A DNA stretch of 5,471 bases from contig JALGZO010000592.1 of assembly GCA_025774865.1 (NCBI GenBank), positions 1 to 5,471 on the forward strand. The letters run 5' to 3'. Shown here in pieces: positions 817 to 5,384 of this stretch. Numbering within the stretch: the first letter of the stretch is position 1; every line of letters starts with the position of its first letter. The translations under genes and the position numbers were made by a program. The notes below the pieces were generated by a model that ran no database searches, was not told where the DNA came from, and worked only from the letters and a program-made list of their open reading frames with translations. This stretch comes from a bacterium (GTDB taxonomy: Bacteria > ARS69).

Positions 817-845
817 TTGACGACTCAGACAAAGTGTCTTATATT
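817..845 (+). promoter_or_regulatory. sigma70-type promoter of the BlaI-like/M56 operon
   Basis: The -35 box is TTGACG (817-822) and the -10 box is TATATT (840-845), with exactly 17 bases between them. Each matches the consensus at five of six positions. Transcription would start near base 852, leaving a leader of about 22 bases before the ATG at 874. The -10 box sits in the only AT-rich patch of this GC-rich intergenic region. Two identical-armed palindromes lie in the spacer and over the start site, so binding by a repressor would block RNA polymerase. Inferred from sequence only. Confidence 0.8.
827..839. promoter_or_regulatory. Operator 1, palindrome AGACA-N3-TGTCT
   Basis: A perfect 13-base inverted repeat, AGACA-AAG-TGTCT, lies between the -35 and -10 boxes. 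The same arms recur 23 bp downstream. BlaI/MecI/CopY repressors bind dyads with an ACA/TGT core (TACA-N2-TGTA in classical members). This one keeps the core but has a three-base spacer and AG/CT flanks. It is the likely binding site of the repressor encoded just downstream, giving autorepression. Confidence 0.78.
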
Positions 846-873: not shown

Positions 874-1281
874 ATGGAAAAGCCCTGGGCGAAGCAGCCA
901 CGCCGGGAGGTCCCGGACGCGGAGCTCGCGGTCCTCAAGGTCCTCTGGGACCGCGGCACCGCCACGATCCGCGAGATCACTGACGTCCTCTACCCTCGCG
1001 GCGAGACGGCCCACTACGCCACGGTGCAAAAGCTGCTCGAACGGCTCGCCGCCCGCCGGTGCGTCGACCGCCGACGCGACGGGCGAGTGCACCGGTATTC
1101 GCCCACCGTCGAGCGCGACGACCTCATCCGGGACCGACTCCACGAGGCGGCGGACAAGCTGTGCGAAGGTTCGCTCACGCCGCTCCTCACGCAGCTCGTC
1201 GACGGTCGCCGCCTCGCCCCGGAGGAGATCGAAGCACTCCGCGATCTCGTCCGCCGACTCGACGAACGGGAGTCCCCATGA
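874..1281 (+). CDS. BlaI/MecI/CopY-family transcriptional repressor
   Basis: This 135-residue protein has the family's usual size and layout. Residues 14-40 (starting DAELAVLKVLW) are the first part of the winged helix-turn-helix. Residues 46-64 (AHYATVQKLLERLAARRCV) are the recognition helix region and resemble the family's T-V-x-x-L-L-x-x-L signature. Residues 65-77 form the wing, with the typical GRVHRYSP. Residues 82-131 are the helical dimerisation part with the common EGSLTPLL and LAPEEIEAL patterns. In known systems such repressors bind as dimers and are cleaved or released when the partner M56 protease is activated. The ATG follows GAGGAGGG by three to four bases. The stop codon shares ATGA with the M56 start, so the two are co-translated. 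It probably controls its own operon through the two upstream palindromes. Whether it also acts on the divergent SGNH gene is unknown. A link to beta-lactams is not supported because the partner lacks a penicillin-binding domain. Confidence 0.95.
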   Translation: MEKPWAKQPRREVPDAELAVLKVLWDRGTATIREITDVLYPRGETAHYATVQKLLERLAARRCVDRRRDGRVHRYSPTVERDDLIRDRLHEAADKLCEGSLTPLLTQLVDGRRLAPEEIEALRDLVRRLDERESP

Positions 1282-2831
1282 TGGAGACCTGGGGAAACCT
1301 CATCCTGTTCAACGCCGCGAGCGCCACGGTCCTCGCGGGAGTCGTCGCGATGATCGCGCCCCGGACGAAGCGACCCTCTCTCGTGCACGGCCTGTGGCTT
1401 CTGGTTCTCCTCAAGCTCGTGAGCGTGCCGGCGCTGGAGATTCCCTTGCTCCCGTCGATCGAGACTCTGCTCCCATCCGAGCCGCTGGTCGCGTCGGTCG
1501 GGCCGACTCTCGACGTGGTGTCGACCCCCGAGACAGTCGCGACGAAGCCGACGAATCCCGGACTCGGAGCCCGCGCGGCGCTCGTCCTCACCATGGCTCT
1601 CGGGGCGGCCGGCCTTCTGTCGCTCGCCGGCTGGCGTGTGCACCGGTTCCGCCGACTCCTGCGACACGCATCGGAAGCGCCACCGGGGCTGCAGCAGCGG
1701 GCGGCCCGGCTCGCCGCGGCGCTCGGTCTCGCCTACCCGCCGCCGATTCGCATCGTCCCCGACCGCATCCCGCCCGCCGTTTGGCCCGCACTCGGACGCT
1801 CTCAGATCCTCCTTCCCGCTCGATTGCTCGATCGGCTGTCGGCCGACGAGCTCGACACACTCCTCGCGCACGAGCTCGCTCACATTCGTCGGCGCGATCA
1901 CTGGGTTCGCCCGTTCGAGCTGCTGATCACCGCCTTCTACTGGTGGCACCCGGTCACGTGGTGGGCTCGCCGCAACTTGCGCCTCGCCGAGGAGAAGTCG
2001 TGCGACGAGCTCGTGCTGGACAGTTTGCCGGGTCACTCTCGTGCCTACGCCGAGAGCTTGCTGAAGACCGTCGAGTTCCTCTCGACGCGTGAAGATCGCA
2101 TCCCCGCTCTCGCCATCGGCGCCGGGGAAACACATCGCCTGAAGGAGAGAGTCGTCATGATCCTGAACCGTGAGATCGCCAGCCCGATCACGAGCCGAGC
2201 CCGCGTCGCGTTCGCCGCCGTGGCCCTTCTCGCAATGCTCGTCTCGCCCGCGTGGGTCGAGAGCAAGACCGCGCACGAACACCAGCCCGAGCACACGCGG
2301 GCAGAGAGAGAGTACGTCGCGAAGATGCTGGCCGTGCACCGGGAAGAGCTTCGTCTCGAAAGAGAGCTGCACGAGCTCCAGGCGAAGCGTTCCGAGCTCG
2401 AGCACGAGCTCCAGAGCGTGATGTTCCAGACTGAGCAGAAGCGCCTGAACGAGGAGGCCGAACAGCTGTTGGAGGCCGGCGAAGAGCTTCAGGCGGTGGA
2501 AGTGCGGCGGCACCTCGAGATGCTGCAACGGGAGGTAGCGCGCGATCTCGACTACCAACGCTCCGAGCTACTGCGGGGCCGCAAGCAAACGGATCTGGAG
2601 CTTCAGCTACGCGAGCTCGAGCTCTCGCGCGAGGAGATGATGGTGGAAGGTGAAGCAGAGCTCGCGCGGGAAGTCACGGAGAAGGCGTTGGCGGTGGAGC
2701 ACGCGCTCCAGGCGCTCCGGCTCGAGACGCTCGAAGCCGAGGTTCAGCGCAACCACGAGCGCCTCGAAATGGAGGCGGATCACCTCCGAGAAGAGGCCGA
2801 GAAAGCGGCCGCGGAAGCGAAAGCGGATTGA
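1278..2831 (+). CDS. BlaR1-like M56 membrane zinc metalloprotease with C-terminal coiled coil
   Basis: This 517-residue protein is the likely signal transducer for the upstream repressor. Hydrophobic segments at about 7-27, 37-55 and 99-119 precede a cytoplasmic protease domain (about 120-308), then a fourth segment at 309-327. HELAH (198-202) is the HExxH zinc site, and Glu239 in EEKSCDE is the likely third ligand. HRLKERVVMIL (286-296) matches the end of the M56 domain. Arg/Lys-rich stretches after segments 1 and 3 give the BlaR1 topology, with the C-terminus outside the cytoplasm. Residues 338-517 contain no Pro, Cys or Trp and are dominated by Glu, Leu, Arg and Ala in heptad-like order: a long coiled coil replaces the penicillin-binding sensor. 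The start at 1278 is chosen because ATGA overlaps the repressor stop and GGGAG lies five bases upstream; Met at 1281 is the alternative. A frame start further upstream at 1059 would lie inside the repressor gene. The signal sensed is unknown. Confidence 0.93.
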   Translation: MMETWGNLILFNAASATVLAGVVAMIAPRTKRPSLVHGLWLLVLLKLVSVPALEIPLLPSIETLLPSEPLVASVGPTLDVVSTPETVATKPTNPGLGARAALVLTMALGAAGLLSLAGWRVHRFRRLLRHASEAPPGLQQRAARLAAALGLAYPPPIRIVPDRIPPAVWPALGRSQILLPARLLDRLSADELDTLLAHELAHIRRRDHWVRPFELLITAFYWWHPVTWWARRNLRLAEEKSCDELVLDSLPGHSRAYAESLLKTVEFLSTREDRIPALAIGAGETHRLKERVVMILNREIASPITSRARVAFAAVALLAMLVSPAWVESKTAHEHQPEHTRAEREYVAKMLAVHREELRLERELHELQAKRSELEHELQSVMFQTEQKRLNEEAEQLLEAGEELQAVEVRRHLEMLQREVARDLDYQRSELLRGRKQTDLELQLRELELSREEMMVEGEAELAREVTEKALAVEHALQALRLETLEAEVQRNHERLEMEADHLREEAEKAAAEAKAD

Positions 2832-2841
2832 GGAGCGACCG

Positions 2842-4179
2842 CTACCCGAAGAAGCGCCCCACGTCCATCACGGTCACGGAAAGCATGAGCAAAAGGAGGA
2901 GCGCGAAACCGATCTGCTGCAAAACGATCTTCACCTTGATGGACGGTGGTCGCCGGGTCACGACCTCGACGGCGTAGAGCGCGAGGTGCCCGCCGTCCAG
3001 CACGGGAATGGGAAGAAGATTGAAGATCGCGAGCTGCGTCGAGATGCTCGCCATCGTCAAGATGAACGACCCGATCCCCCACCGCGCCGCCTCTCCGAAG
3101 ATCTCCGCCATGCGCACCGGGCCCCCGAGCCCGCCCTCGTCCTCACCCTGGAACAGCGCGTTGAAGATGAGGACCGGAATTCGCGGCAGCATCTGAAGCA
3201 CCATCCGCGTGAGCCACCAGGCCCGTTCCGCTCCCCGCCCGAGCGAGGCGACGACACCCAGCTTCTCCCTCTCGACCGATTGCTGGATCCCGATGCGGCC
3301 AACGGTGTCGGGCTCGCCCCCCTCACCGCCGATCGGAACCGCATCCGGAACGACCGTCGCCTCGAGCGTCTGCCCGCCCCGTTCCCAGGCGATCTCGATC
3401 TCCTCGCTGGGGTGGGCACGGATGATCTCCGCCATCGTCGTCCAGCGATCGACTTCCTCGCCGTCGAGCCGGACGACTCGGTCCCCGTTCCGGAGGCCCG
3501 CGTTCCACGCCGGACCGCCTCGGCGTACGTCCCCCACCGTTGCGAGCGCGAACGGCGCGACCCCGAGCGGTGATCGGTCGAAGCCGCCCTCGTCGCTCGC
3601 CTGCCCTCGCAACACGATCGGCTCACCCGCGCGTTCCACTTCGATCTCGAACTCTTCGCTGGCGCCCACGCGGACGAGCTCTTCGCCGAACCCCATCCAA
3701 TCCGCGACCGGGACTCCGTTCACGGCGCGGATTTCGTCGTCCACCTGGAACCCGATGCTCTCGGCGAGCGACTCCTCGGCCACGACGCCGACTCGGGTCG
3801 TCGAGATCGTCTCGAGACCGCTGAAGTAGACGACCGCGGCGAAGAGGAAGATCGCGAGCACGTAGTTCATGACCGGGCCGGCCAGGACGATGGCCGAACG
3901 GACGGCGACCGACTGCCCGAGAAACTCGTCGGGTAAATGCTCGAGCTCCTCCTCCGGATTGTCGCCGGCGAACTTCACGAAGCCGCCGAAGGGAATGGCG
4001 GAGATGGCGTACCTGGTGTCGCCACGCGTGAAGCCGAGGATCTCCGGGCCGAAGCCGATCGAGAACTTGAGAACGCGAACTCCCAGCCTCCGCGCGACCC
4101 AGAAGTGCCCCCACTCGTGAACGAGGACGAGCAGCGACAAGGCGAGGAGAAGGAAGAACATCGGCTGCAAGAAGCTCAT
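2842..4179 (-). CDS. rseP: RseP-family site-2 intramembrane zinc protease
   Basis: This 445-residue inner-membrane protease belongs to the M50 family, which cleaves transmembrane segments of anti-sigma factors and leftover signal peptides. HEWGH (21-25) in the first membrane segment is the HExxH zinc site. NLLPIPVLDGGH (387-398), with Asp395 as third ligand, is the conserved second motif. GFGP (42-45) and AGPVMNYVLA (100-109) are also typical. Two PDZ-like regions lie at about 128-195 and 207-280; the second has the clearer fold signature (GGPAWNAGLRNGDRVV). Hydrophobic segments fall near 1-20, 97-119, 369-389 and 420-440. The first PDZ lacks the usual AGL-x-x-GD wording (SIGFQVDDEI). The ATG at 4179-4177 is chosen because ATGA overlaps the dxr stop, AAGGA lies eight bases upstream, and the HExxH sits at the usual distance. 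The in-frame start at 4314 would add 45 basic, proline-rich residues inside dxr and is unlikely. Downstream of cdsA and dxr is a common position for this gene. The stop is TAG. Confidence 0.96.
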   Translation of the reverse strand: MSFLQPMFFLLLALSLLVLVHEWGHFWVARRLGVRVLKFSIGFGPEILGFTRGDTRYAISAIPFGGFVKFAGDNPEEELEHLPDEFLGQSVAVRSAIVLAGPVMNYVLAIFLFAAVVYFSGLETISTTRVGVVAEESLAESIGFQVDDEIRAVNGVPVADWMGFGEELVRVGASEEFEIEVERAGEPIVLRGQASDEGGFDRSPLGVAPFALATVGDVRRGGPAWNAGLRNGDRVVRLDGEEVDRWTTMAEIIRAHPSEEIEIAWERGGQTLEATVVPDAVPIGGEGGEPDTVGRIGIQQSVEREKLGVVASLGRGAERAWWLTRMVLQMLPRIPVLIFNALFQGEDEGGLGGPVRMAEIFGEAARWGIGSFILTMASISTQLAIFNLLPIPVLDGGHLALYAVEVVTRRPPSIKVKIVLQQIGFALLLLLMLSVTVMDVGRFFG

Positions 4180-5384
4180 GACACGTTTCCTTGGACTCGG
4201 ACTCCTCCGAGGCGGCCCCGGACGAGCTCGCGCGCCTCCTGGCGAGTAAACACGTCGATCTCGCGCAGGTTCTCGAGTGTCGGTGCGCCAGACGTGGCGC
4301 CGCGGCTCAGACACTCCTCAATGACGACCGGGATCTCCGGAAAGCCGATTTCGTGCTTCAGGAACGCCTCCACCGCGACCTCGTTCGCCGCGTTCAGGAC
4401 TGCCGGCGCCAATCCGCCGGCCTCACCCGCCTCTCGCGCCAGGCGCAGACAGGGGAAACGCTCGGGATCGGGCTCCTCGAAGGTGAGGGGGCCGCTGCGC
4501 ACGAGATCCAGCCGTGCCACCGGTGATGGTCGGCGTTCCGGATGGGTCAGAACGTACTGAATGGGCAAGCGCATGTCCGGGTCCGATATCTGAGCCATGA
4601 CCGAGAGATCGACGAATTCCACGAGCGAATGAACGAGGGATTGCGGGTGCACCACGACCTCGATGCGATCGTAGGGAACGCCGAAATACCAGTGGGTCTC
4701 GATGATCTCGAGCCCTTTGTTCATGAGCGTCGCCGAGTCCACCGTGATCTTGGGTCCCATCTCCCACGTGGGGTGGCTCAATGCGTCGGCCGGCTCGATG
4801 GAGGAGAAATCGGCCGCCGGTAGGCTCCGGAACGGTCCCCCCGAAGCGGTCAGGATCACGCGCTCGACTGCGGCTCGAGTGTTGCCGCGCAGACACTGAT
4901 GAATCGCCGAGAGCTCGCTGTCCAGCGGCAGCAACTCGACCGACCTTCGCGCCGCCGTCTCCATGATGAGCTCGCCCGCCACGACGAGCGGCTCCTTGTT
5001 GGCGAGAGCGACCGCCGTGCCCGCCTCCAGCGCCGTCAACGTGGGGAGGAGCCCTCGGCTCCCGACGAGACCGTTGACGACGAGCTCGATCTCCGGAAGC
5101 CGGGCAATCTCGCACATGGCGTCGGGACCGGCGAGCACTTCCGGGGCGAAAGGAGCGGACGCCAGCTGGTCCCGGAGCCGCCCGGCGGCGCCGACATCGG
5201 CGAGACCGACGATCCGCGGACGAAACTCGCGAACCTGCTCGGCCAGGGCCACCCCGTTGGAGCCGGCCGCCATGGCCTCGACGCGAAAGCGATCCGGGAA
5301 GTGGCGAATCACATCCAGGGTGCTGCGCCCGATCGATCCGGTCGAGCCGAGAATCGCGATCCGTTTCGGTTGGCCAGCGGTCAT
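4176..5384 (-). CDS. dxr: 1-deoxy-D-xylulose 5-phosphate reductoisomerase (Dxr/IspC)
   Basis: Dxr is the cytoplasmic enzyme that turns DXP into MEP with NADPH and a divalent metal, the first committed step of MEP-pathway isoprenoid synthesis and the target of fosmidomycin. At 402 residues it has the usual length. GSTGSIG (13-19) is the NADPH-binding loop, and ANKEP (128-132) is the cofactor/substrate segment. Asp155 and Glu157 in LPLDSE and Glu226 in MNKGLE are the metal ligands. ASGGPF (180-185), HPTWEMG (204-210), KITVDSATLMNKGLE (212-226) and HPQSLVHS (246-253) are the conserved active-site blocks. PDMRLPI (269-275) and LNAANEVAV (330-338) lie in the C-terminal part. Two oddities are Leu158, where almost all Dxr proteins have His directly after the metal-binding DSE, and DLS instead of DGS at 259-261. 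The ATG at 5384 overlaps the stop of a mini-ORF (TGATG) and has only a weak GGGA ten bases upstream, so its translation is probably coupled to upstream translation. The TGA shares ATGA with rseP. Confidence 0.97.
   Translation of the reverse strand: MTAGQPKRIAILGSTGSIGRSTLDVIRHFPDRFRVEAMAAGSNGVALAEQVREFRPRIVGLADVGAAGRLRDQLASAPFAPEVLAGPDAMCEIARLPEIELVVNGLVGSRGLLPTLTALEAGTAVALANKEPLVVAGELIMETAARRSVELLPLDSELSAIHQCLRGNTRAAVERVILTASGGPFRSLPAADFSSIEPADALSHPTWEMGPKITVDSATLMNKGLEIIETHWYFGVPYDRIEVVVHPQSLVHSLVEFVDLSVMAQISDPDMRLPIQYVLTHPERRPSPVARLDLVRSGPLTFEEPDPERFPCLRLAREAGEAGGLAPAVLNAANEVAVEAFLKHEIGFPEIPVVIEECLSRGATSGAPTLENLREIDVFTRQEARELVRGRLGGVRVQGNVS
4188..4192 (-). promoter_or_regulatory. Shine-Dalgarno site for rseP
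   Basis: AAGGA on the minus strand lies inside the last codons of dxr, eight bases before the ATG at 4179-4177. Together with the ATGA overlap it fixes the rseP start and suggests that rseP can be loaded independently as well as by termination-reinitiation from dxr. Confidence 0.6.

Follow-up and report, generated by a model that had tools for sequence, protein, structure and literature searches.

A predicted periplasmic helical domain at the C-terminus of a BlaI-linked M56 protease

The best-known role of BlaI/M56 repressor-protease systems is the response to beta-lactams, and it is as a drug sensor that BlaR1 is known. The locus described here encodes an M56 protein that ends in a long, charged, helical region with no penicillin-binding motif, which raises the question of what such a protein reads. 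A reasonably probable answer is that the two genes form a self-regulated repressor-protease cassette in which the periplasmic helical domain reads a signal that is probably a protein.

Gene layout, repressor and protease

The window, meaning the whole stretch of DNA analysed here, is one entire contig of the source genome (G000:C596) and is 5471 bases long. From left to right it carries part of an SGNH-hydrolase-like gene (minus strand), a BlaI-family gene and an M56 gene (both plus strand), and rseP and dxr (minus strand).

Left end of window, minus strand: SGNH-hydrolase-like gene, partial, named by sequence motifs without a family match
874-1281, plus strand: BlaI/MecI-family repressor, 135 aa (PF03965 E 8.5e-27; alignment to MecI chains)
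1281-2831, plus strand: M56 (BlaR1-family) metalloprotease, 516 aa (open reading frame with PF05569 match)

The ATG of the M56 gene overlaps the blaI stop codon. An alternative start lies at 1278 (ATGATG), which explains why residue numbers in an earlier sequence-only reading of this DNA are one higher than those used here. The dxr and rseP genes overlap as an operon (2842-5384, minus strand) that converges with the M56 gene, leaving about 10 bases between the stop codons; RseP is an intramembrane protease tied to envelope stress in other bacteria. The source genome also carries another BlaI-M56 pair (L040:447-2212, plus strand) with a short, Cys-containing C-terminus, and a related genome, G002, has a pair resembling it (L037).

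The repressor matches PF03965 over residues 15-127, covering positions 3-114 of the 115-position profile and with them both the winged helix and the C-terminal dimerisation region, and it aligns with MecI at E 3e-9. Staphylococcal BlaI is cut at N101|F102 (PMC9834060), and in the alignment to MecI chains this bond corresponds to Q107|L108 of the window protein.

The M56 protein matches PF05569 across residues 14-294 (E 6e-32; 111 bits against a cut-off of 31), which assigns it to the M56 peptidases. Its membrane and catalytic features are as follows.

1299-1631, plus strand: membrane segments 1-3 (residues 7-25, 34-52 and 99-117) and the loops between them, assigned by hydropathy maxima flanked by positive charge towards the cytoplasm
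1869-1883, plus strand: HELAH zinc motif, residues 197-201, with HExxH invariant in seven M56 proteins
1992-1994, plus strand: E238 (Glu239 in the earlier numbering), invariant, third zinc ligand by alignment with BlaR1
2112-2117, plus strand: A278-I279, at the alignment position of the bond where BlaR1 cleaves itself, residues differing
2205-2261, plus strand: membrane segment 4 (residues 309-327), leading from the cytoplasm into the periplasm, by hydropathy

The protease half had been described as intact, and the alignment bears this out: H197, E198, H201 and E238 are invariant across seven M56 proteins. The same proteins all keep R290, D242 and Y256, which align with Arg294', Asp246 and Tyr261 of BlaR1, interface or active-site residues in its cryo-EM structure (PMC9834060). 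BlaR1 cleaves itself at S283|F284 (PMC9834060). The corresponding pair is A-I in the window protein and A-T in its G002 orthologue, not S-F, and because these residues differ, activation may differ from that of BlaR1.

Four hydropathy peaks with positive-inside flanks predict that both the N- and C-termini lie outside, in agreement with the BlaR1-like topology proposed earlier, which placed the C-terminal region beyond the cytoplasm. Since Omp85 proteins are encoded in the genome, the cell is taken to have two membranes, and "outside" would be the periplasm.

Composition, fold and conservation of the helical domain

The C-terminal region was described in the sequence-only reading as about 180 residues lacking Pro, Cys and Trp. 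The run comprises 180 such residues and has a chance probability of about 2e-10 at the combined frequency of these amino acids in residues 1-336. Its predicted helical structure divides as follows.

2289-2828, plus strand: predicted periplasmic all-helical domain, residues 337-516 (COILS, structure predictions and a gapless 144-residue match to the G002 orthologue)
2298-2474, plus strand: predicted helix 1, residues 340-398, followed by a break at A399-G400-E401 (single-sequence prediction)
2484-2648, plus strand: predicted helix 2, residues 402-456, followed by a break at G457-E458 (single-sequence prediction)
2655-2825, plus strand: predicted helix 3, residues 459-515 (single-sequence prediction)

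The domain has a net charge of -20, and residues 325-516 contain no Pfam match. The stated lack of penicillin-binding motifs also holds: beyond residue 325, SxxK, SxN and K[TS]G are all missing. Heptad-like patterning, which had been claimed as well, fared less evenly. COILS, run with a hand-entered matrix, exceeds p>0.9 in two stretches, at about residues 347-410 and 480-516, and drops in residues 413-470. Shuffled sequences of matching composition come close to these scores, 7 of 100 reaching the observed mean, and neither heptad nor hendecad order is significant in the three predicted helices of either orthologue or of both jointly (p 0.15-0.85). The coiled-coil score appears to be mostly composition; the shuffle and per-helix results therefore leave a region that is helical and charged by prediction, with regular heptads not demonstrated. 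As for an internal duplication, the best self-match offsets disagree between the orthologues (80 vs 66), and the idea was set aside.

Predicted alone from a single sequence (residues 328-516), the domain forms three helices with a mean pLDDT of 91 and a pTM of 0.75. The full-length single-sequence prediction instead yields one unbroken helix (340-515), in a model whose protease part failed (mean pLDDT 53). That unbroken helix, together with the high COILS scores at both ends, would suit the rod of the earlier reading, a parallel coiled coil stretched out over about 26 nm that crosses the periplasm and responds to the spacing of the envelope or to strain in it. Such a rod is quite improbable, given that the isolated domain is predicted as three helices with higher confidence, that break residues A399 and G457 are kept in the G002 orthologue, that the COILS score falls in the middle of the domain and that heptad order does not exceed chance. 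A bundle of three folded-back helices is probably the better model, and the straight rod of the earlier reading the less likely one.

A Foldseek search against solved structures reached a best E of 1.2, and no sequence relatives of the domain were found among them. VIA gives a Z of 10.1 to PcsB and of 8-9 to PspA/Vipp1, whereas a score of about 13 is needed before a match between helical bundles points to anything beyond a shared layout. The structures compared (PspA/Vipp1, PcsB and BAR-like) thus appear to match as generic helical bundles only.

The family of the source genome is represented by five genomes in the collection. The helical domain has a single known orthologue, encoded at locus L005 of G002, a genome from a second genus; this orthologue too lies behind a BlaI gene and is 58% identical over the matched protease segment. 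Three of the five genomes give no match, and two of these three are incomplete. The helical domains of the two orthologues align without gaps over 144 residues at 28% identity, with a z of 8 against full shuffles and of 5.7 against shuffles that preserve the hydrophobic pattern. Because this gapless alignment stands above the shuffles, the domain is a conserved unit and not drifting low-complexity sequence. Within it, differences at the three codon positions number 67, 68 and 73 of 144, too saturated to be informative. The Pro-rich linker that precedes the domain is about 110 residues longer in G002. No relatives were found in viral contigs. Genome contigs yielded a single M56 relative, which comes from a Pirellulales MAG and whose C-terminus is unrelated.

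Directly upstream of the blaI-M56 pair in G002, on the same strand, is a membrane protein gene with a Ser/Thr kinase-like domain (L036:6041-7603, plus strand). The S. aureus kinase Stk1 phosphorylates BlaR1 (PMC9834060).

Operon promoter and proposed signalling

Three candidate control elements precede the blaI gene.

817-845, plus strand: sigma70-type promoter of the blaI-M56 operon, TTGACG-17-TATATT (10 of 12 positions match, against 0 expected from shuffled sequence)
827-839, no strand assigned: candidate operator 1, perfect dyad AGACA-AAG-TGTCT, within the promoter spacer
850-862, no strand assigned: candidate operator 2, perfect dyad AGACA-CGC-TGTCT, just 3' of the -10 element

The window contains two AGACA-N3-TGTCT dyads against 0.07 expected. 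The orthologous promoter in G002, TTGACA-17-TAGATT, has the same layout, with CAGACAGTCCGTCTTA in the place equivalent to operator 1 and CAGACAAGCCGACTGA as the counterpart of operator 2; its dyads are slightly degenerate and their arrangement is that of the window. Two perfect BlaI-type candidate operators kept in the orthologue thus lie in the operon's own promoter, and the simplest reading is autoregulation of blaI-M56.

In both genomes, the extended dyad pattern with at most one mismatch occurs only at the blaI-M56 promoter, and the dyad-pattern searches found no target genes beyond this operon. G002 has one more site with a perfect core (C248:19801), which lies more than 120 bases from any gene start. 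A wider regulon sought with CAGACANNNTGTCTNA was rejected: sites with two mismatches are as numerous as in a reversed-pattern control, and almost all that were examined are intragenic. Three sites upstream of genes in G000 (C74:6233, C75:19587 and C451:4554) are at chance level and are not claimed as targets.

The narrow distribution of the operator bears on the idea that beta-lactams still act on the protein, whether at another site or by way of a distinct partner that binds penicillin. G002 does have class A beta-lactamase-like matches, but the sole beta-lactamase match in G000 falls below its family cut-off, a near-perfect operator is seen nowhere else in either genome, and the penicillin-binding motifs are missing. 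A beta-lactam response is extremely unlikely on this evidence.

In the favoured reading of a self-regulated cassette, BlaI would occupy the two operators and hold the blaI-M56 operon repressed. The M56 protein would be a four-pass membrane protease with both termini outside and its zinc site towards the cytoplasm. Input would come through residues 337-516, three long acidic helices bundled in the periplasm, with the chain probably doubling back at 399-401 and 457-458. The signal would most likely be the binding or release of an envelope protein, or altered packing of the helical domain itself; a protein partner is suggested because the domain shows no pocket-like fold and presents a large charged helical surface. 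The signal would pass through segment 4 to the protease, which would cut the BlaI dimerisation region near Q107-L108 and lift repression. A bolder version, in which the bundle opens or extends under envelope stress and so switches on a site-specific cytoplasmic protease, would add a mechanical or protein-occupancy sensor to BlaI-type control, and is very doubtful.

M56 C-termini and known systems

The survey of M56 C-termini covered two other phyla (146 and 149 genomes), 386 genomes domain-wide and loci collected earlier, a sample that leans towards relatives of the window protein and is not a census. It comprises 83 distinct M56 loci, and in 78 of these the stretch also contains a BlaI gene. 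Among 82 C-termini, Pfam finds TonB_C in 8, as well as HEAT, M23, SLT, STN, thioredoxin, SnoaL and other domains; the 25 families listed, in which entries with a single member reach as far as E 1e-9, do not include a transpeptidase. By this survey, M56 C-termini appear to be exchanged freely, and one that does not bind penicillin appears ordinary. The claim that a coiled coil "replaces" the sensor is accordingly right about a helical, non-penicillin domain but too strong in its verb, because M56 C-termini swap freely and the penicillin sensor was not seen in the surveyed relatives.

Several of the surveyed proteins have other coiled coils at their ends; in the three helical C-termini compared by hhalign, no relation to the window domain was detectable. 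The window domain thus appears to be a small family of its own. No paper on coiled-coil M56 proteins was found in the literature.

Several other C-termini stand out. One M56 protein, which has a BlaI gene close to it, carries a fused M23 peptidoglycan-hydrolase domain (L008:1051-1578, minus strand). Another continues into TPR-like repeats and a thioredoxin/AhpC-TSA domain, a possible redox input (L156:1-1554, minus strand). HEAT repeats follow the fourth membrane segment in two (L137:1-1464 and L144:628-1533, both minus strand), and tandem helical repeats of the type GVTPEFIRELK occur in four (L006, L044, L045, L047). The C-termini of L149:2161-3120 (plus strand), L150:409-1368 (minus strand) and L152 resemble, on reading the sequence, an outer-membrane beta-barrel, in which case a single chain would span both membranes.

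The helical domain could instead be structural, holding an M56 dimer together or spacing it from the wall while the signal enters through the first extracytoplasmic loop, the membrane or a separate protein. In favour of this, BlaR1 forms a domain-swapped dimer (PMC9834060), a mycobacterial BlaR that has no sensor domain is yet reported to regulate BlaI (PMC5473688), and the window domain has no recognisable ligand fold. Its length, however, is kept without gaps over 144 residues beside a linker that varies by about 110, and the many binding-type domains exchanged at M56 C-termini suit an input role, so that a purely structural domain is fairly unlikely. The survey suggests a broader role for the BlaI/M56 pair, as a membrane signalling module of general use whose extracytoplasmic domains can be exchanged, drug sensing being one application. 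The cassette is well suited to testing this, since it combines a single repressor and a single protease with a defined two-dyad promoter and a compact helical domain as the putative input.

Within the domain-wide sample, the closest proteases outside the family are those of G567 and G597 (L133 and L134; E 2e-49 and 3e-40), whose C-termini are partly helical, with helical parts that show no detectable relation to the window domain. M56 proteins with a Pro-rich linker and an LGxKQ coiled coil from the phylum of G032 (L026, L048, L057, L063, L065 and L070) likewise adjoin BlaI and end in a charged helical coiled coil, but this helical part shows no detectable relation to the window domain (hhalign probability 0.2%). 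Mycobacterial BlaR (Rv1845c) and BlaI also form a BlaI-M56 pair without a penicillin sensor (PMC5473688); BlaR reportedly lacks any extracellular sensor domain, whereas the window protein has a helical domain of 180 residues. Together with the survey C-termini, this system indicates that M56 proteins without a penicillin sensor are known and common.

S. aureus BlaR1/MecR1 (PDB 8exp, 8exs) shares with the window protein a four-pass M56 fold with both termini outside, the HExxH motif with its Glu, the interface Arg and Asp, a BlaI/MecI partner and operator dyads in the promoter. Unlike BlaR1/MecR1, the window protein has a helical domain in place of a penicillin-binding sensor and does not conserve the autocleavage residues, and it scores 63.7 bits against the cut-off of 400 of the NCBIfam BlaR1 model NF000326, matching over residues 173-336 only. 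The locus is a standard BlaI/M56 module bearing a conserved, uncharacterised, putative input domain, and its proposed mechanism is that of BlaR1 with a different input.
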